A DNA stretch of 22,002 nucleotides from positions 1-22,002 of the IMG/VR virus record IMGVR_UViG_3300043773_002234; one strand, written 5' to 3'. Of this stretch, positions 569 to 12,439 are shown piece after piece. This stretch comes from a virus. The translations under genes and the position numbers were made by a program. Position 1 is the stretch's first letter; each line of letters opens with the position of its first letter. The notes beneath the pieces are model-generated. The model saw only the letters and a program-made list of their open reading frames with translations. It was not told the DNA's origin and ran no database searches.

Positions 569-1040
569 AGTGCATGGCTCCTCTAACCTCCAAGAAACAG
601 TCGTTGATCTGTTTATCCGTCCATCCAAGGCGAACTAGTTCGCATCGAACGGTCCTACGGTTAGGTCGGTCTGACCGCAGGATGAGATTGATGACGTCCC
701 GCGCTTCCTCACTAAGCTCCTCCACCCAATCATGCGTCACGAATTGGTCCGAATAGTCCAACGCATGGTAGACGATCATCCCTGTCCTATCCTGACGCTT
801 TTGTTCTGTCCTTTTCTTGTCCACCAATCCATACAGGACTTTCAAATAGATCCAAAGAGGGAAAGCGTAGGGTTTCTTGAGCTTGGAATGCTTGTCAAAG
901 TTGATAAGGTAGAGGAAGTAGGCGTCACTGACGTATTCATTCAGGTCCCCTCCATAGGACTGGTGGATCTTGGTCGCCGCTTTGACCAAGAGTCCTTGGA
1001 CATCCTTAAAGGTCTCCTCAATCGCATTCTTATGAGCCAT
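555..1040 (-). CDS. Divergent sigma-70-family (ECF-like) protein
   Basis: A 161-residue protein whose layout resembles a minimal sigma factor. Residues 15-80 look like region 2: a helical stretch with DLNEYVSDAYFLYLINFD, an aromatic-rich helix (FPLWIYLKVLYGLVD) and then a basic tail KKRTEQKRQ, comparable to the core-binding and -10-recognition helices of ECF sigma factors. Residues 108-155 (LSEEARDVINLIL ... LVRLGWTDKQINDCFLEVRGAM) look like region 4, with a helix-turn-helix ending in the usual 'LxxxRxxL'-like helix. If this is right it would redirect host RNA polymerase to phage promoters. The gene overlaps the upstream VWA-like gene by 11 nt and the downstream gene by 14 nt. The match is by pattern only and is weak in the -10 contact residues; a non-sigma HTH protein is the main alternative. 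Confidence 0.5.
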   Translation of the reverse strand: MAHKNAIEETFKDVQGLLVKAATKIHQSYGGDLNEYVSDAYFLYLINFDKHSKLKKPYAFPLWIYLKVLYGLVDKKRTEQKRQDRTGMIVYHALDYSDQFVTHDWVEELSEEARDVINLILRSDRPNRRTVRCELVRLGWTDKQINDCFLEVRGAMHYDGR

Positions 1041-1902
1041 AGCCGGCGTCTCCTTCCTTGCTAATCATCGAGGAGATGTCCATAAATGTTTTTATGGCCC
1101 CGTCAAGATTGAAAGAACGGACGATTTCCTGAGTGTCCGCCGAAAACAGATTCTTGATCCGAGAGAACTCATACGACGGCCATCCCATGCCAGAGTCAAC
1201 TGGAAATTCCAAAGTGTCGGCAATCTGATTTGTCAGTCCCACAAGACGAAAGTACCAAGGACTTACAGCGGAGGCCAGGCTTTCGACATTCACTGGCTCG
1301 CCTGATCTCTTCAGGATTGTGGTCACGATCCGACTCCTCGGTCCTTTTTTGTAGACCCCATCGCCAATTGAGTACATGCTAAGTTCCACCTGGACTCCCT
1401 GCTCTTCCAATTTGTCCACAGCTGCTACGATGGACGCTGCTTGAATGAAAGCTGAGGCACCGGTGATATTACACGACATCCCATTAGCGAACGCGAGACT
1501 CACGAACCTGCTCCCTTCTTGAACTTTGATGCTCACCGGAAGATCAAAAAAGTCGCTACGTCCGGCCATCCATCGGTCGAAATCCACCTCTCCATCAATC
1601 TCAGACGTGCTCCTGCGACGACGGCGGCTGCTGAAATCGGAAGACTGGTCGGGGATCTTTCGTCTTAGTTCTTCAATGATAGAAATACCCTGCGACCAAG
1701 GAGTAGTAAGAGCCTTTTCTAGGTCACTCCAGCACGTCAGATCTGTCCGCATCAAGGAAGATCCGCAGCGGAAAAACCCTTCGTTCTTCAAGTCCCCTCC
1801 GCCCTTCTTGACCTTCTTGACTGTATCCAGGGCATGTCTGATCTGCTCATCCACTGAATCGAACTGATAAATTTTCTTAAACTGGTCTACGATCATCTTC
1901 AT
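1030..1902 (-). CDS. VWA-like/DUF7192-type partner of the MoxR ATPase
   Basis: A 290-residue protein encoded directly after the AAA+ ATPase; the two genes share a TAATG stop/start. Residues 1-100 are helical and end in an Arg run (RRRRR at 93-97). Residues 130-220 alternate hydrophobic strands with helices: a strand VSLAF, an N-G-M-S loop, an Ala-rich helix (FIQAASIVAAVDKLEEQG), then a strand VQVELSMYS. This is the order expected for the start of a von Willebrand A fold and resembles the phage DUF7192 family. The metal-binding DxSxS motif is not present (FANGMS instead), so any MIDAS site is degenerate. MoxR ATPases usually act with VWA proteins as a chaperone-like pair, and the gene order fits that. 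The family assignment is from memory of sequence style, not a search. Confidence 0.55.
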   Translation of the reverse strand: MKMIVDQFKKIYQFDSVDEQIRHALDTVKKVKKGGGDLKNEGFFRCGSSLMRTDLTCWSDLEKALTTPWSQGISIIEELRRKIPDQSSDFSSRRRRRSTSEIDGEVDFDRWMAGRSDFFDLPVSIKVQEGSRFVSLAFANGMSCNITGASAFIQAASIVAAVDKLEEQGVQVELSMYSIGDGVYKKGPRSRIVTTILKRSGEPVNVESLASAVSPWYFRLVGLTNQIADTLEFPVDSGMGWPSYEFSRIKNLFSADTQEIVRSFNLDGAIKTFMDISSMISKEGDAGYGS

Positions 1903-3110
1903 TAGGACACCTTTACTCTTTCATCAGAGGACCAACCGGCAAAATAAACGTTCGCTATCTTGGAATAATCCCAACCATGCGACGACATCAGGTAAGCGTC
2001 TTTGATAAAGCGGGTGGACATCACTCGCCTTAGTCCAGCCGCTTCAATCTTTTTTCGAATCCCCTGAAGACGGCCACGCAGCTCACTGTCTGGACAAACG
2101 GCTGCTTCAATCCGTTCATCGTAGTCGCACTCAATCGTCCCGATGCGGAACCTATCCAACGTCGCATCATCAAGGGTATTCCGTCCAGCGTAGACCCGGG
2201 TGGCTCCTTTTCCGAAGGTGTTGGCGGCGGCCACCATCACGAAGTCTTTGTGTTGATAGACAGGCCGTCCTTCGTTGTAGTTGGGGATGGAAAAATAACC
2301 ATTGGCCAGCGCCGAGTTCAGAACCAACATGACGTTCGGGTCGGCAGCGTCCAACTCATCACAAAGGAACACCCCTCCTTCGCTGAAGCATCGAACGAAA
2401 CCAGAACGCGTGTAGGTGGATTCTCCAGTCTGCATGTTTGGAATCGTCCTCCCCATCAGGTGGCTCTCATTGGTGCCCCCACTGAGCGCGAGCATGTCGA
2501 AGTCCAGCCCTAGGGCTTTCGCAAGGAGACTGGCGGTCGTCGTCTTACCGCATCCAGACGGGCCGACCATCAAGATGTTTCTCCGACAAGCAGCCAGGTC
2601 CACGATGTCCTGGAAATTGGCCGGTAGGGTCTCCTCAAGCTCAATATCTGGACGGTTGGCCTTCTTGATGGTGATGACGCTTGGACTGGAGCCTTTTTGT
2701 TCGAGCTCTTTGACCTTGGCCTTCAGCTCGACGACTTGTCCTAGCAGCTCGGTCACCGCCTTTTCTAAGCGCCCTGAGTCGCCGGAGGAAGCGCCGGAGG
2801 ACGAACCCCTGCTCCCAGTCATCGGGTTGGCCCAAAACTGAGCCTGGGCCTGTTCTCGCCCATCCTCGCGTTCTTGATATTCGGGGGAGATGCTCCAGCG
2901 GATGTTCCCTGTCCCCTGACTTCCAAGGATTCCAAGCCCCTTGAGGTGGTGCAGGACCTTCAGGAGCATCGACCGCTTGTTTTCTGGCAGTCCAATGTTC
3001 GCAATGATTCGGGAAGTCGCCAACGGGACTCCAAAGTTTCTTTTCGTCCACAGATATTCGATCGCCGCTTGGCCGATTCCATTGGACGAGTTTAGGTTCG
3101 AGTCTGTCAT
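1902..3110 (-). CDS. MoxR/CbbQ-like AAA+ ATPase
   Basis: A 402-residue AAA+ ATPase of the AAA_5 (MoxR/CbbQ/dynein-related) type. Visible motifs are Walker A GPSGCGKT (183-190), Walker B VFLCDELD (247-254), sensor 1 Asn in AAANT (294-298), and a candidate arginine finger in LDRF (318-321). The N-terminal 1-75 looks like a small winged-helix domain (LATSRIIANIGLPENKRSMLLKVLHHLKGLGIL). A Ser/Gly-rich linker (99-113) and a short coiled coil (114-140, LEKAVTELLGQVVELKAKVKELE) follow. Such ATPases remodel or load cofactors onto protein partners, usually with a VWA-domain protein, and the next gene fits that role. The start ATG 3108-3110 is preceded by a T-run and GGAG at a 9-nt spacing. The ATPase call is secure; the target is unknown. 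Confidence 0.9.
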   Translation of the reverse strand: MTDSNLNSSNGIGQAAIEYLWTKRNFGVPLATSRIIANIGLPENKRSMLLKVLHHLKGLGILGSQGTGNIRWSISPEYQEREDGREQAQAQFWANPMTGSRGSSSGASSGDSGRLEKAVTELLGQVVELKAKVKELEQKGSSPSVITIKKANRPDIELEETLPANFQDIVDLAACRRNILMVGPSGCGKTTTASLLAKALGLDFDMLALSGGTNESHLMGRTIPNMQTGESTYTRSGFVRCFSEGGVFLCDELDAADPNVMLVLNSALANGYFSIPNYNEGRPVYQHKDFVMVAAANTFGKGATRVYAGRNTLDDATLDRFRIGTIECDYDERIEAAVCPDSELRGRLQGIRKKIEAAGLRRVMSTRFIKDAYLMSSHGWDYSKIANVYFAGWSSDERVKVS

Positions 3111-6241: not shown

Positions 6242-7792
6242 ATGTCAAAGCCTTACGTTCCACCACCGCCGACAGTCAATCAAGTAGCCCACGAGAACAA
6301 AGCACTGATGACTCTGGTGTTCAATTCGTATCTGTCAGGAAGAGCGGCTCTAGCCAAAGAACTAGACCCTTCACGCTCGCGAGCAATCACGATTGATGCC
6401 GAATGCAAATACCCTGAGACTCTGAACATCAACGACTTCCGCTACATGTGGCTTCGAAACGGAGTCGCTCAACGGGTGGTCTCTTCCTACTCGGAGGAGT
6501 GCTGGACGACAGACCCTGAAGTCTATGAGAAGGAAGGACCAGACGAAACGCCTTGGGACGAAGCCCTTGACGAGCTTGACGACGAGTTTCAGCTGTGGTC
6601 TACATTGGAGGAACTAGACGTCTACTCTGGAATCGGCTGTTTCGGTATCATGCTGATCGGCATCGACGATGGTAAGGAATTGAGTGATCCCATCGAAGGA
6701 CTGGAAAGCGAAGGAAAGACCCTGAAACCAGTGGGCAGTCATAACCTGCTCTACCTCAAAGTCTTTTCGGAGATGCATGTCCAGGTCTCCACTTGGGAAC
6801 AGGACAAGACCAACCCGCGCTATGGCCGACCCATTCTCTACTCGGTGACCTTGAATCCGTTTCCTCAGACTTCGCAGAACAGTCAAGACAATCAGCAGAC
6901 TGGTCAACAGGTCCAAGTCCATTGGACCCGAGTGATTCACTTGGCGGCTGAACATAACCAATCCCGAATGCACTCTGTCTACAACCACCTGCTCGATCTC
7001 AAAAAGGTAGGGGGCGGATCGGCTGAGATGTTTTGGCGCGGAGCGTTTCCAGGGATGAGCTTTGAAGTTGACCCAGACTTCATTGCGGCTGGTGCCACGA
7101 TAGACCCTGAGAAGATGAGGGAAGAGTTCACCAAGTACTCCGAAGGGCTGCAACGCTATCTGGCTTTGACTGGAGTGACCGCCAAGACCCTGTCCCCTCA
7201 AGTCGTCGACCCAGCCCCGCACGTAGACTCAATTCTGCGCTTGATCTCGATCGCAAAGAAGATCCCAAAACAGATCCTTGAAGGAAGCGAGTCGGCGGTC
7301 TTGGCATCGGCGCAGTACGCCAAGGCTTTCAACAAGCGGCTGAACCGAAGGAGGAAGCAGTATTGCACTCCACACCTAATTCGGGCCACCATCGACCGCT
7401 TTATCGTTCTTGGCATCCTACCCTTTGTCGAAAGTTACCATGTCGAGTGGGACGACCTGAACTCCTCGACTGAAAAGGAAAAGGCCGACCTGTCTGAGAT
7501 CATCACCAACACCCTGGCTAAGTATATTCAGGGTGGAGTCGAAGGGCTTGTAGACCCTCGCATGTATCTTGTCGAAGTGATGGGATGGGAGGAAGAGGTG
7601 GTAGACAAAATCCTTCAATCCATGCAGAACGATATCAACAACCTCATCGGGGACGATCCAGAGGACCAGTTACTGGATGCCAACGGAAACCCCATAGCTT
7701 CCACCACGACCCCTGCTCCAAACATCCAGCCTGGAACCACTTCGCCTCCAATGATTCGATCCACTAGCACTCCATCTCCATCAAACGAGTAA
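6242..7792 (+). CDS. Portal protein (DUF1073-like)
   Basis: A 516-residue protein in the expected portal position after TerL. The N-terminal half carries LNINDFRYMWLRNGVAQRVVSSYSEECW (61-88), the segment typical of DUF1073-type portal proteins. An acidic stretch and a stem/wing-like helix (SVYNHLLDLKKVGGGSAEMFWRGAFPGMSFEVDPDF) follow. The portal is the dodecameric ring at one capsid vertex through which DNA enters and leaves. The C-terminal 30 residues are Thr/Pro/Ser-rich (PIASTTTPAPNIQPGTTSPP), resembling the linkers in the MuF protein downstream. The Shine-Dalgarno site is weak (AGAAAG), unlike most genes here. A 64-nt gap separates it from TerL and contains nothing recognisable. Confidence 0.85.
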   Translation: MSKPYVPPPPTVNQVAHENKALMTLVFNSYLSGRAALAKELDPSRSRAITIDAECKYPETLNINDFRYMWLRNGVAQRVVSSYSEECWTTDPEVYEKEGPDETPWDEALDELDDEFQLWSTLEELDVYSGIGCFGIMLIGIDDGKELSDPIEGLESEGKTLKPVGSHNLLYLKVFSEMHVQVSTWEQDKTNPRYGRPILYSVTLNPFPQTSQNSQDNQQTGQQVQVHWTRVIHLAAEHNQSRMHSVYNHLLDLKKVGGGSAEMFWRGAFPGMSFEVDPDFIAAGATIDPEKMREEFTKYSEGLQRYLALTGVTAKTLSPQVVDPAPHVDSILRLISIAKKIPKQILEGSESAVLASAQYAKAFNKRLNRRRKQYCTPHLIRATIDRFIVLGILPFVESYHVEWDDLNSSTEKEKADLSEIITNTLAKYIQGGVEGLVDPRMYLVEVMGWEEEVVDKILQSMQNDINNLIGDDPEDQLLDANGNPIASTTTPAPNIQPGTTSPPMIRSTSTPSPSNE

Positions 7793-7796
7793 ACCA

Positions 7797-8030
7797 ATGA
7801 CCAAACGACGATACGAGAAACAGGCTGATTCGACCAACGACCAACCGGGGATAGTAGTCCTTTGGGACTCTGACTTATGCGTTCATTGTGGTGCCTGTCA
7901 CCAAGGGCTTCCACAAGTGTTCAAGCCAGACGCTCGGCCTTGGGTCCAACTCGACGGAGCGCCGGCAACCGATATTATCCAGCAGGTAAAACAGTGCCCG
8001 AGTCAAGCCCTATCCCTTGAGGAAAAATAG
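7797..8030 (+). CDS. Mono-cluster ferredoxin (Fer4_19-like)
   Basis: A 77-residue protein with a divergent 4Fe-4S mono-cluster domain. The cluster ligands are C28, C31, C34 (DLCVHCGACHQGLPQVF) and C67 (QVKQCPSQAL). The surrounding pattern, 'C..CG.C..GLP.VF....RPW' followed by 'I...V..CPS.AL', matches the Fer4_19 family closely. These small proteins carry electrons to oxygenases and other redox enzymes. The first 20 residues are a basic, probably disordered extension. It begins 4 nt after the portal stop and is co-transcribed with the membrane hydroxylase-like gene at 8573, which would need an electron donor. A ferredoxin between portal and MuF genes is not part of a normal head module. Partnership with the hydroxylase is inference. 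Confidence 0.85.
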   Translation: MTKRRYEKQADSTNDQPGIVVLWDSDLCVHCGACHQGLPQVFKPDARPWVQLDGAPATDIIQQVKQCPSQALSLEEK

Positions 8031-8031
8031 A

Positions 8032-8292
8032 ATGCATGTCCCAGACCCAAACACGATCAAAGTGAATGTTTTTGAACACCCTTCACTCGCTCTAGTCCAC
8101 AGTCGAGACGATGTTGATGCAAGAAGGCTCGTTTTCAACCGCATCGATATCGTAAAAAGAGCGACAGAAGGTGGCAAATGTGCTGTGGTTCTAGTTATGA
8201 ACGCAGAGGATGGTTCTAAGTATGTTGCCGTGATGGCCGGCAGCACTTTGAACGAAGTCAATGAAATTGTTCAAAGCATCGACGGTCCATAA
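8032..8292 (+). CDS. Hypothetical protein, 86 aa
   Basis: An 86-residue protein (MHVPDPNTIKVNVF...). A TTG at 8017 opens the frame earlier, but ATG 8032 is preferred because GAGGA at 8019-8023 lies 8 nt before it. Two predicted strands (IKVNVFEH; CAVVLVMNAEDGSKYVAVMAG) surround a helical section with RRLVFNRIDIVKRA. There is no Cys-based metal site and no membrane segment. It lies 1 nt after the ferredoxin stop and is likely coupled to it. I do not recognise the family. It could be a head-associated protein or part of the redox cassette. Confidence 0.7.
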   Translation: MHVPDPNTIKVNVFEHPSLALVHSRDDVDARRLVFNRIDIVKRATEGGKCAVVLVMNAEDGSKYVAVMAGSTLNEVNEIVQSIDGP

Positions 8293-8330
8293 CGCGATCA
8301 CCGCCACCCCTAATTCTTGGAGAACAGTCA

Positions 8331-8576
8331 ATGACCTACCAATCATCCTGGAACAGAGACCAAGACGGAAACATCCGCATCCAAAACGTCCAGCTTTTGT
8401 CTGGACAAATCCTCGCACCAGACCCCACCGTCGAAACATGGGAATGGAACCCGACTTGGAGGTTTATCAAGCGGCTAAATCTAAATGGAGACACTGTTGG
8501 AGTAGTATCCTGCGGAGTCATCGCTAGTTATTATTTCCACGAACCTATCCCATCCTCCCAATACATGGACTGGTGA
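8331..8576 (+). CDS. Hypothetical protein, 81 aa
   Basis: An 81-residue protein (MTYQSSWNRDQDGN...) rich in Trp and polar residues. GGAG at 8319-8322 lies 8 nt before the ATG, supporting this frame over an overlapping 88-codon frame on the same strand that lacks such a site. Its stop overlaps the GTG start of the membrane hydroxylase-like gene (GTGA), so the two may be translationally coupled. No motif, signal peptide or membrane segment is recognised (the VGVVSCGVIASYYF stretch is short for a membrane span). Function unknown. Confidence 0.65.
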   Translation: MTYQSSWNRDQDGNIRIQNVQLLSGQILAPDPTVETWEWNPTWRFIKRLNLNGDTVGVVSCGVIASYYFHEPIPSSQYMDW

Positions 8577-9118
8577 CTGTCATGAGCACAAAGACATTGA
8601 TCCTGAGTTTTTTGAAAAGCCGCGGAGGCTTGATAGTATTGTCGGCCTTAGTGGCCATTCTGACCAGGACTCAACTGTGGGTCTTTGGGTCCAGGGACTT
8701 GATAATCGCCGCGAGCATCATCGCAGCTTGGCCGCTGCTGGAATACTCCGCCCACAGATGGTTCTTGCACGAATGGACTTGGACTCCTTTTCGTAAGTCG
8801 CATGACCGTCATCATGAACATCCAAGCACCGATACTGGGTTGCCGGAACCATGGGTGATAGCGGTCTACTTCCTGAACTCGGTGATCTTCGCGTTCACTC
8901 TGCCTGGACTCTACACAGCTCATTGCTCCGTGCTCGCGATGCTTTCGATATACGAGTTCATCCACTTTTCATGCCATTGCAACTACACCCCTAAGACTTG
9001 GTGGGGATGGTCTGTCAGGATCAATCACCTGACACATCACAATCTGGATCGGCCAAGCAGATATGCTATGTCGCTTCCAATCGTTCGAGTTCGAGACAAC
9101 AAGCCGCAAGGACAATAG
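8573..9118 (+). CDS. Membrane fatty acid hydroxylase/sterol desaturase-like di-iron protein
   Basis: A 181-residue integral membrane protein with the complete histidine set of the fatty acid hydroxylase/sterol desaturase superfamily. The boxes are HRWFLH (61-66, HX4H), HDRHH (77-81, HX2HH), HFSCH (131-135, HX3H) and HLTHH (152-156, HX2HH). Hydrophobic spans at about 17-37, 43-58, 95-113 and 117-133 alternate with the boxes as expected for a cytoplasmic di-iron site between membrane helices. Members hydroxylate or desaturate lipids, sterols or carotenoids using O2 and an electron donor. The substrate is not readable here. The start is GTG 8573, or ATG 8582 three codons later; neither has a strong Shine-Dalgarno site. 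The ferredoxin encoded three genes upstream is a plausible electron donor. Confidence 0.85.
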   Translation: MTVMSTKTLILSFLKSRGGLIVLSALVAILTRTQLWVFGSRDLIIAASIIAAWPLLEYSAHRWFLHEWTWTPFRKSHDRHHEHPSTDTGLPEPWVIAVYFLNSVIFAFTLPGLYTAHCSVLAMLSIYEFIHFSCHCNYTPKTWWGWSVRINHLTHHNLDRPSRYAMSLPIVRVRDNKPQGQ

Positions 9119-9127
9119 GCACTTTCT

Positions 9128-11941
9128 ATGGCTAAACTCTCCCCAGCGAGAATAGACCCCACTCGCTTGTTCAGCCTAAGGCGCCGATTCGTAGGGGAGA
9201 TGAGTAGGCGCTTCGATGCCCTCGCTTCGGCCATTCGGGTACTCATCATTGGGGAGAACGTATTCGGGCTCACGGACGAGCCTGCTTTTAATCCGCTTTC
9301 GCTCAATACTAGATGGTCTTTCGATACGAACCCAGAAAAGGTCAAGAAGTTCCAGGCTTGGTTGAAAGAACAGGTGGATGCTGGTATTTTGATCTCTTCC
9401 AATCCTGACAAACCTTGGACCGGGGAGTTCGTCGAGTCAGCCTACAAGACAGCTGTCAATAGGACCTACTCTGAGACCCACAAAGACATGGGTTCTAAAC
9501 TCGGAATGACCGCCGACGAATTCGCTCAAGAAGCCTTCAGCAGCAACGCAGCAGTCGCTCAGATCAAACACCTATACGAGCGCTCCTACTCAGGACTGGT
9601 CAGTGTCACCAAGTCCATGGAACGAAGAGTTTCGGAAACACTGGCGCAAGGCTTCGCTGATGGGCTAGGAGCCAGGGAGATAGCTCGAACCCTCACTCGT
9701 GACGTAGGGATGGAGAAGCGCTCAGCTCTTCGGGTCGCTAGGACAGAGTTGACGTACGCCTACGCAGAAGGCCAACTAGATGGTTTTGAAGCTATCGGAG
9801 TGCAGGAGTTGGGAGTCTTGACCGAATGGCTCACCACAGGGGACGATAGGGTCTGTCCCACCTGCGCCGCATTGAACAAGTCGGTCTATACCATCGACGA
9901 AGCTAGGGGACTCATCCCTCGGCACCCCAATTGCCGATGCGCCTGGGTGCCCAATCTCGATCCGTCCGACAAGCAACTGAAGATGCTGGCCAAGACTAAA
10001 AAGCAACTAAGCAAATCGGTCGGCCTGGAACGCCCTAGGCTTTCGTTAGAAGAGGCTAGGGCGCGGTCCACATGGAAAGGCGCCGACCTGTCTCCAAGCG
10101 CTTCCAAAGGGCCGCAGACCCTATTCGCGCCGGCCCCTAGCCTGTTCAATGAGCAGCCCACCTCCATCATTCGGTGGATGCAGCAAGACGGATGGACCTT
10201 TGAAGAAATCCGCAGGGTCTTGGAGCAGCGTGGAGTCGAAGTGGCAGAGGGGACTATACGAACTCAGATAAGCAGAGCCAAGAAGGGACAGGAAGGCTCA
10301 AAGCTGACTATCGAACAGCAGAACATCCTTAGGGGGGAGAGGCTCAAGCCGATTGTCGTGGTCACGACTACGACCACCACGACAACCACTACCTCCCGAC
10401 CGACAACCACGATGGCTCCTTGGACGACTCCTATTCCGACGACCACTCCATCTTTGACCACGGTCGCTCCCACTACGACAATGATTCCTTGGACAACCCC
10501 AAGACCAACCACCACTTCTGCTCCAGTCATCGTCCTCAAGGTCACGACCACTCCCAACCCTGACCTGTCCATCATCCCAAAGTTTGACAACGTTTCCAAG
10601 ACAGGGTTAATTCGTCAATTAGCAAAAGAGGGATACAGTTTCAAAGAGGCGAAAGACTTTTTGATCAGTCAAGGGATTGAAGTGGCCGACGGGACTATCA
10701 AGAAACAGTTGGGGGATGGTAAGCGCGGAGTGGGAAATCCCGTACAGCTCACAGACCAGCAACTAGCGTACCTTCGTGTAAGGAAAGGACTTCCACCCAC
10801 CAACACTCTTCCGCCTTCTTTGACCACTAAGCCCCTAGCGACCACCACCGCTCCCCCTAAAGAGAAGGGTTCTAAAAAGACAAAGCCCCCTAAGCACATC
10901 ACCTTCACTGGAAAAGTTACCGGCCTCCACAAAAGCGTATGGGAAGTCTTGGATGGGAAGCCAATCAAAGATATAGAACAGGCTAGACAGATCGGAAGAT
11001 TAGTGGAGGGTGAGCTTAACAAGAGACTTCCACACCTTTCCAAACTCGCAGATCTTCGAAAACAAGTTCAAGACATAGAGGAGCAGCAGGTAAAGTGGAG
11101 TCATAAAGACGCCGACTTACGGGCTGAAGAGTTCAGACTAGGTAACATAGCTAGGCGACTAAGTGCTACTCAAGCTCAAAAAGATGCCCACAAAGAAGCT
11201 ATTGACGCCGTGGCTGCCCACGCAAAAACATTCCCAAAATCGCACCATCTTACAAAGCAGATAGAGGACATAAAGGCTGCCAAACCAAGTGATGGTCGAA
11301 AGGAGCGGTTGGAGATTATTAAAAGTTTGCGAGACTTTGGGGACTCTGGAGTTGGGTACGAAAATCGATTGCTCAAAGGGAAAGGCAAGGATGATGAAAA
11401 AGCTCATCTTGCTGTAGTAAAACAGCTAGAAAATCTACCAAAGGATTGGTTGGCGGACACCAAAGACTCGGGTCACACATCCATTATAAAAACAGTGGAG
11501 CGTGGGTACTTCAACAGCACCACCATTGGTCTTTCAGGAAGATTCAGTTCTAAGGACGCTAAAGACGTAGACCGTATTAACGCGGTTGCTTTGCATGAAC
11601 TAACTCATTCGATGGAGTTGGGTTCTCGTGCGACGAATTCGGGAGATCGCAGGACGCGTATCTCTTTAGGACTGCTTCAAAGTGATTTCAAGAGAGAGCG
11701 GGCTAAGAGTTCCAAGGACCCAAAGGATGGTATGCTAACGGCTATCTACTATGGTAGGGACGAGATGGGCTACAAGGATAACTTTGTTGAGCATTACTCA
11801 GGAAAAGATTATGGTGACAGCACCCATCACGAGATCCTCACTATGGGAGTAGAGTCGGTGTTCCATGAAAGGCATAAGAACGTCACTGAGGATGACGAAG
11901 ACTATCGGCATTTTATTGTTGGACTACTGGTGGGTTACTAG
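9128..11941 (+). CDS. MuF minor head protein fused to HTH-like repeats and a C-terminal HExxH domain
   Basis: A 937-residue multidomain protein. Residues 165-275 are a MuF/SPP1 gp7-type head morphogenesis domain (ALRVARTELTYAYAEGQLDGF, EWLTTGDDRVCPTC, PRHPNCRC; C243, C246, H266, C269, C271 may bind zinc). Two related modules at about 344-403 and 493-552 share the pattern 'GWTFEEIRRVLEQRGVEVAEGTI' and look like helix-turn-helix units. They are joined by Thr/Pro-rich linkers (412-465, 556-578). Residues 590-760 are helical and partly coiled coil. The C-terminal domain has HELTH (823-827), a zinc metallopeptidase motif, and a later Glu in HHEILTMGVESVF (E902 or E909) as possible third ligand. 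MuF proteins carrying C-terminal effector domains are known phage polymorphic toxins. The effector substrate is unknown; a capsid-associated peptidase is the alternative. Confidence 0.85.
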   Translation: MAKLSPARIDPTRLFSLRRRFVGEMSRRFDALASAIRVLIIGENVFGLTDEPAFNPLSLNTRWSFDTNPEKVKKFQAWLKEQVDAGILISSNPDKPWTGEFVESAYKTAVNRTYSETHKDMGSKLGMTADEFAQEAFSSNAAVAQIKHLYERSYSGLVSVTKSMERRVSETLAQGFADGLGAREIARTLTRDVGMEKRSALRVARTELTYAYAEGQLDGFEAIGVQELGVLTEWLTTGDDRVCPTCAALNKSVYTIDEARGLIPRHPNCRCAWVPNLDPSDKQLKMLAKTKKQLSKSVGLERPRLSLEEARARSTWKGADLSPSASKGPQTLFAPAPSLFNEQPTSIIRWMQQDGWTFEEIRRVLEQRGVEVAEGTIRTQISRAKKGQEGSKLTIEQQNILRGERLKPIVVVTTTTTTTTTTSRPTTTMAPWTTPIPTTTPSLTTVAPTTTMIPWTTPRPTTTSAPVIVLKVTTTPNPDLSIIPKFDNVSKTGLIRQLAKEGYSFKEAKDFLISQGIEVADGTIKKQLGDGKRGVGNPVQLTDQQLAYLRVRKGLPPTNTLPPSLTTKPLATTTAPPKEKGSKKTKPPKHITFTGKVTGLHKSVWEVLDGKPIKDIEQARQIGRLVEGELNKRLPHLSKLADLRKQVQDIEEQQVKWSHKDADLRAEEFRLGNIARRLSATQAQKDAHKEAIDAVAAHAKTFPKSHHLTKQIEDIKAAKPSDGRKERLEIIKSLRDFGDSGVGYENRLLKGKGKDDEKAHLAVVKQLENLPKDWLADTKDSGHTSIIKTVERGYFNSTTIGLSGRFSSKDAKDVDRINAVALHELTHSMELGSRATNSGDRRTRISLGLLQSDFKRERAKSSKDPKDGMLTAIYYGRDEMGYKDNFVEHYSGKDYGDSTHHEILTMGVESVFHERHKNVTEDDEDYRHFIVGLLVGY

Positions 11942-11956
11942 CTCAAGGAGATTAGA

Positions 11957-12439
11957 ATGCGAGCGCGATTGATGTGGGTAGTTGGGGTGCTTTTAGCAGT
12001 CCTACTGTTTTTGTTCCTTTTCATTCGAACAGGACCACAGGCCGAATCCATCAAACCCGACATGGAAGTCGCTGAAGAAGTGCACGACATCCCATTCGGA
12101 GCCGACCGGAGTTCTAAGTGGCCGGCAGTCCGCAATCACTTCGTCAAGCTTCATCCAGTATGCGAGGCTTGTGGGTCGACCGAGTCCTTGAACGTCCACC
12201 ATGTCATCCCCTTTCATGAACGGCCGGATCTCGAACTCGCTATGGGAAACCTCATCACCCTATGCCGCGACCATCACTTCACCCTAGGGCATTTCAGGAA
12301 CTGGTCCAAGTCGAATCCCAATGTCCGCAGGGACGCTGCTAAGCTCAGGAAGACCCTACCAAAGAAGGACCAAGAAAAAGAAGGCTCGTGGTGGTTCTCT
12401 GGAGCCCTGCAATGGTCGGGTTTCGCATCAGCTATTTGA
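11957..12439 (+). CDS. Membrane-anchored HNH endonuclease
   Basis: A 160-residue protein. Residues 6-24 form one hydrophobic segment (WVVGVLLAVLLFLFLFI), a signal anchor or uncleaved signal peptide. The HNH domain spans about 54-115: CEAC (C69, C72) and CRDHH (C103, H106, H107) would hold the structural zinc, while H81/H82, N98 and H107 provide the HNH catalytic set (VHHVIPFHERPDLELAMGNLITLC). AGGAG precedes the ATG at a suitable spacing. HNH nucleases next to terminases help phage packaging, but they are normally soluble. The membrane segment and the position after the MuF fusion protein suggest a different role, such as attacking DNA at the envelope. Family call secure, role uncertain. Confidence 0.85.
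   Translation: MRARLMWVVGVLLAVLLFLFLFIRTGPQAESIKPDMEVAEEVHDIPFGADRSSKWPAVRNHFVKLHPVCEACGSTESLNVHHVIPFHERPDLELAMGNLITLCRDHHFTLGHFRNWSKSNPNVRRDAAKLRKTLPKKDQEKEGSWWFSGALQWSGFASAI

Follow-up and report, generated by a model that had tools for sequence, protein, structure and literature searches.

Does a ferredoxin gene that lies close to a membrane hydroxylase gene, in the head module of a phage, form one metabolic unit with it, or are the two genes independent cargo? A preliminary description of this locus proposed the former, with the ferredoxin as electron donor to the enzyme. The window, by which we mean the whole stretch of DNA that was analyzed, comprises 22,002 bases and is an entire IMG/VR entry, linear and probably a fragment.

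Gene order and the portal-MuF junction

The genes run in the order terminase small subunit, terminase large subunit, portal, ferredoxin, two small reading frames (orfA and orfB), hydroxylase, MuF, and then head and tail genes, and some of the proteins have what we take to be a planctomycete-like look. The features that matter for the argument are as follows.

6242..7792, plus strand: portal protein, which borders the insertion site upstream (PF06381, 6.7e-24; phrog_146, 1.5e-60)
7797..8030, plus strand: YjdI-type [4Fe-4S] mono-cluster ferredoxin, 77 amino acids, with C28, C31, C34, and C67 (PF06902 Fer4_19, 1.5e-19)
8032..8292, plus strand: orfA, about 86 amino acids, no assigned family
8331..8576, plus strand: orfB, 81 amino acids, no assigned family
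8582..9118, plus strand: predicted membrane di-iron hydroxylase of the fatty acid hydroxylase superfamily, 178 amino acids (PF04116, 3.7e-10)
8753..9040, plus strand: segment of the hydroxylase gene that encodes the ten invariant histidines, H58 to H153 (alignments A2 and A3)
9128..11941, plus strand: MuF head morphogenesis protein, downstream border (PF04233, 2.2e-14; phrog_758, 7.9e-34)

The reading frames first reported are all present at their positions, and the PF06381 and PF04233 matches flank the four genes, which confirms their placement between portal and MuF. The two small genes between ferredoxin and hydroxylase are indeed of no recognized family: orfA has no match in Pfam or NCBIfam and only PHROG matches at E 0.003 or weaker, and orfB has no family match in Pfam, NCBIfam, or PHROG searches and no relative in the viral_contigs search. 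Spacing is tight throughout, with gaps of 4 nt between portal and ferredoxin, 1 nt between ferredoxin and orfA, and 9 nt between hydroxylase and MuF, and with the orfB stop 5 nt upstream of the hydroxylase ATG. That ATG, at 8582, is probably the hydroxylase start, because the relatives begin there; a GTG at 8573 is a possible alternative. Gaps this short suggest late transcription of the cargo genes, probably together with the head genes.

Portal and MuF could both be located in 54 related contigs (a few of them near-duplicates), and across these we compared the interval between the two genes. It ranges from an overlap to 7.7 kb, its contents are unrelated from contig to contig, and the two genes are adjacent or overlapping (gap of at most 1 nt) in 21 of the 54. 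This marks the portal-MuF junction as a hot spot of insertion, and a chance assembly of two cargo genes is therefore the simpler explanation for what the window holds. With portal and MuF on either side, the cargo has the setting of an auxiliary metabolic gene, that is, a gene of host-metabolism type among phage hallmark genes.

Other parts of the window have features of their own. The MuF protein has a long C-terminal extension with Thr/Pro-rich linkers and a HELTH motif (residue 823, window 11594-11608), as in zinc metalloproteases. An HNH endonuclease with an N-terminal hydrophobic segment follows at 11957-12439 (PF01844, 6.1e-07) and has relatives in four of the contigs that carry the hydroxylase. 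On the minus strand, at 1030-3110, an AAA_5 ATPase lies beside a DUF7192 protein, an arrangement reminiscent of MoxR-type ATPase systems.

The hydroxylase and its phage-borne clade

The 178-residue protein scores 40.8 bits against PF04116, for which the curated cut-off is 31, and the same profile matches all ten members of the phage alignment (best 4.6e-11). The four histidine boxes that had been claimed for it are present as HX4H (H58/H63), HX2HH (H74/H77/H78), HX3H (H128/H132), and HX2HH (H149/H152/H153), which agrees with the superfamily pattern of HX3-4H, HX2HH, HX3H, and HX2HH (alignments A2 and A3). All ten histidines are invariant in 14 viral sequences (eleven from the phage clade and three divergent ones) and in four plasmid homologues annotated as "sterol desaturase," which have 22-27% identity to the window protein. 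Family membership and an intact metal site are well supported, and the protein is predicted to lie in the membrane and to hydroxylate a lipid.

The closest solved structure is yeast Scs7. A profile that includes the plasmid homologues matches it with all four motifs aligned (4ZR1, 9.4e-22; 4ZR0, 2.5e-21); a profile built from the phage sequences alone does not reach Scs7, and the match at about 1e-21 needs the plasmid homologues. An AlphaFold2 (AF2) model based on fourteen viral sequences has a mean pLDDT of 78 and a pTM of 0.76; an earlier model, built on ten near-identical sequences, had a poor pLDDT of 46, and the improvement came with the addition of one further clade member and three divergent viral hydroxylases. 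The later model aligns to Scs7 with a VIA-align Z of 9.1 (rmsd 4.0 over 162 residues), compared with a Z of 3.0 for the next, unrelated fold, and shows an Scs7-type helical fold. Foldseek also places Scs7 as the best solved match, with a probability of 1.00 and an E-value of only 0.11, and a BFVD search with the model gave no significant match. The Scs7p/FA2H ceramide fatty acid 2-hydroxylase has four histidine motifs and four transmembrane helices, and Scs7-like fatty acid 2-hydroxylases also occur among bacteria, in myxobacteria (PMC10002949). The phage protein shares with Scs7p/FA2H (PDB 4ZR0, 4ZR1) the ten-histidine, four-motif di-metal site and the helical fold. However, it lacks the cytochrome b5 domain, has only 178 residues, and is phage-borne, and its identity over the fold alignment is 15-16%, a level from which the substrate cannot be inferred.

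Could the gene be an artifact of assembly? An assembly chimera was rejected, given that ten other viral contigs from IMG/VR encode a hydroxylase at 65-70% identity to that of the window and that some of these have other genes in common with the window. This recurrence bears out the claim that the gene is real phage cargo. Together with the window protein, the ten form one clade (support 99/97), and the contigs fall into several gene-sharing groups, that is, several phage backgrounds. In the other contigs, the gene lies outside the head module, near replication, recombination, and small orphan genes. The window and the hydroxylase contigs also have in common the HNH gene with the hydrophobic N-terminus and tail-region genes, at ~31-46% identity, and therefore draw on a common gene pool. 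Pairwise omega is mostly 0.07-0.18 (Nei-Gojobori, pairs without synonymous saturation), and by this measure the clade is under purifying selection; one pair (L006/L007) stands at 0.4 and looks recombinant.

Outside these contigs, we found no match among INPHARED phages or PHROGs. A short-peptide search of 84,980 bacterial and archaeal species with the hydroxylase alignment gave no confirmed relative, although such a search can miss distant ones. Among the closest known proteins are short bacterial members of the "sterol desaturase family" (such as WP_284948100.1 of Acidisoma and WP_240198241.1 of Novosphingobium), which have ~175-185 residues and the same ten histidines but differ in being plasmid-borne and, in these two cases, in lying inside envelope-polymer loci. 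Both of the latter (25-27% identity) have glycosyltransferase, capsule, and SDR genes around them, joined by an aminotransferase gene in one locus and an LTA-synthase-family gene in the other. This neighborhood hints at envelope lipids, and at 25-27% identity is only a lead.

Three unrelated viral contigs carry divergent PF04116 hydroxylases (L149, 3851-4369; L150, 3827-4390; L151, 3869-4390, the last of which may be the edge of a provirus), and phages thus seem to have gained the superfamily more than once. In eight of the ten hydroxylase contigs (L003, L004, L005, L006, L007, L009, L010, and L115), a secreted-looking protein with the signature SYGQECANGQC...GVGFS and no Pfam family is encoded ~0.3-2 kb upstream of the hydroxylase; in L009 the frame seems to be broken. 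Five further viral contigs encode this protein with no hydroxylase within 4 kb. A scan of bacterial genomes with a secreted marker protein gave no confirmed relative; the scan requires exact short peptides and can miss distant homologues.

The ferredoxin as a candidate partner

The preliminary description had proposed HMM searches for both families, and the ferredoxin, like the hydroxylase, lies above its curated cut-off, at 70.2 bits against 24 for Fer4_19. The four cysteines reported for it are present in the translation, as is the C...C...CP signature (alignment A4). It belongs to the YjdI type, and it shares C28, H30, C34, PW, and the CP signature with YjdI-type (4Fe-4S)-binding proteins (Fer4_19). 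It is unlike them in its extra Cys31, which completes CX2CX2C, and in having neither a GNAT neighbor nor a CDGSH domain. In the comparison with the plasmid homologues, C28, C34, and C67 are shared and C31 is found in the window protein only; the second cysteine of the motif is missing in five plasmid relatives. A GNAT acetyltransferase gene adjoins the ferredoxin relative on two bacterial plasmids, several other plasmid relatives are annotated as CDGSH proteins, and no hydroxylase lies next to a ferredoxin relative in the four annotated plasmid regions. To our knowledge, YjdI-type ferredoxins are not known as donors to membrane hydroxylases.

No relative of the ferredoxin was found in viral_contigs. 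None of the ten other hydroxylase contigs encodes a recognizable Fer4_19, Fer2, or rubredoxin protein; all are of metagenomic origin and mostly fragmentary, and the sequenced part may end short of a ferredoxin gene. (A weak Fer4 match in one of them, G009, was discarded as an out-of-frame stretch.) Neither ferredoxin nor hydroxylase occurs in any of 50 contigs with a portal or terminase gene in common with the window, and tblastn over ~100 loci selected in the same way found neither. Among the contigs compared, most of them fragments, the pair thus occurs in the window only, and the synteny search for it between portal and MuF came back empty for every contig in which this head module was found. 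What stands of the earlier reading is a hydroxylase superfamily member with an intact metal site that is real cargo; the two-gene cassette is not supported, and is probably an accident of one genome.

Competing readings and what the hydroxylase may do

We favor, with moderate confidence, a reading in which ferredoxin and hydroxylase came into the hot spot of a tailed phage as independent cargo, the hydroxylase being a recurrent stand-alone phage gene that is fed with electrons by the host and hydroxylates envelope lipids. A dedicated ferredoxin, with all four genes as one auxiliary metabolic cassette, seems quite unlikely to us. The genes are co-oriented and closely spaced within 1.3 kb, packed like one transcription unit and so compatible with a joint function; membrane hydroxylases require an electron source, and with its complete CX2CX2C...CP the window ferredoxin could be a conventional donor. 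Yet the ten other contigs carry the enzyme with no recognized donor, viral_contigs yielded no relative of the ferredoxin, the plasmid relatives stand beside GNAT genes or have CDGSH domains rather than hydroxylase neighbors, and two unrelated orphan genes separate the ferredoxin from the enzyme. In its fullest form, a self-contained module would pair a full four-cysteine ferredoxin with a phage-exclusive membrane di-iron hydroxylase, express both late with the head genes, and hydroxylate host envelope lipids, and this we regard as very doubtful. Still less probable is a passenger role, in which neither ferredoxin nor hydroxylase has been selected for any function in the window phage. The junction does accept diverse DNA, and no contig found to share the head module has the pair, but purifying selection across the phage clade and the invariance of the ten ligand histidines, window copy included, speak against it.

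The substrate is a separate matter. PF04116 also includes sterol-modifying enzymes, the annotated plasmid homologues are named "sterol desaturase family," and at such distances the substrate is unreadable from sequence; it could be a pigment or a hopanoid/sterol-like lipid (compare carotenoid hydroxylases and sterol desaturases) rather than an acyl chain. We consider this unlikely, since both the motif spacing and the nearest solved structure match Scs7, which is a ceramide fatty acid hydroxylase, and two plasmid homologues lie in envelope-polymer loci.

If the stand-alone reading is right, the hydroxylase would be a minimal four-helix membrane enzyme with a ten-histidine di-iron center, from a phage-borne lineage that has presumably been passed among several phage groups. 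Embedded in the cytoplasmic membrane of the host, the enzyme would be reduced by a host ferredoxin or some other reductase of the host, activate O2, and place a hydroxyl group on an acyl chain of one of the host's membrane or envelope lipids, which could change the host envelope during infection. The YjdI-type ferredoxin would have arrived separately and may have another redox or iron-sulfur role, and it could incidentally donate electrons. Both the lipid substrate and the benefit to the phage are guesses, and the effect on adsorption or superinfection suggested in the preliminary description is hypothetical.

Genes by which viruses may modify membranes have a precedent in the fatty acid desaturases (vFAD) of Arctic brine viruses (PMC7300359). 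Like vFAD, the window gene is a virus-borne, putatively lipid-modifying gene for which a change in the host membrane is proposed; they differ in that vFAD are desaturases and were reported for other hosts, whereas the window protein is of the hydroxylase family and belongs to a separate phage-borne clade. An Scs7-like phage hydroxylase has no PHROG and was not found in INPHARED or in the literature that we searched. Lipid desaturases are known from phages, and here an Scs7-like hydroxylase forms its own phage-borne clade, under purifying selection and in several phage backgrounds. Being one small gene, it lends itself to direct assay; an active enzyme would make lipid hydroxylation a further means by which phages remodel the host envelope.
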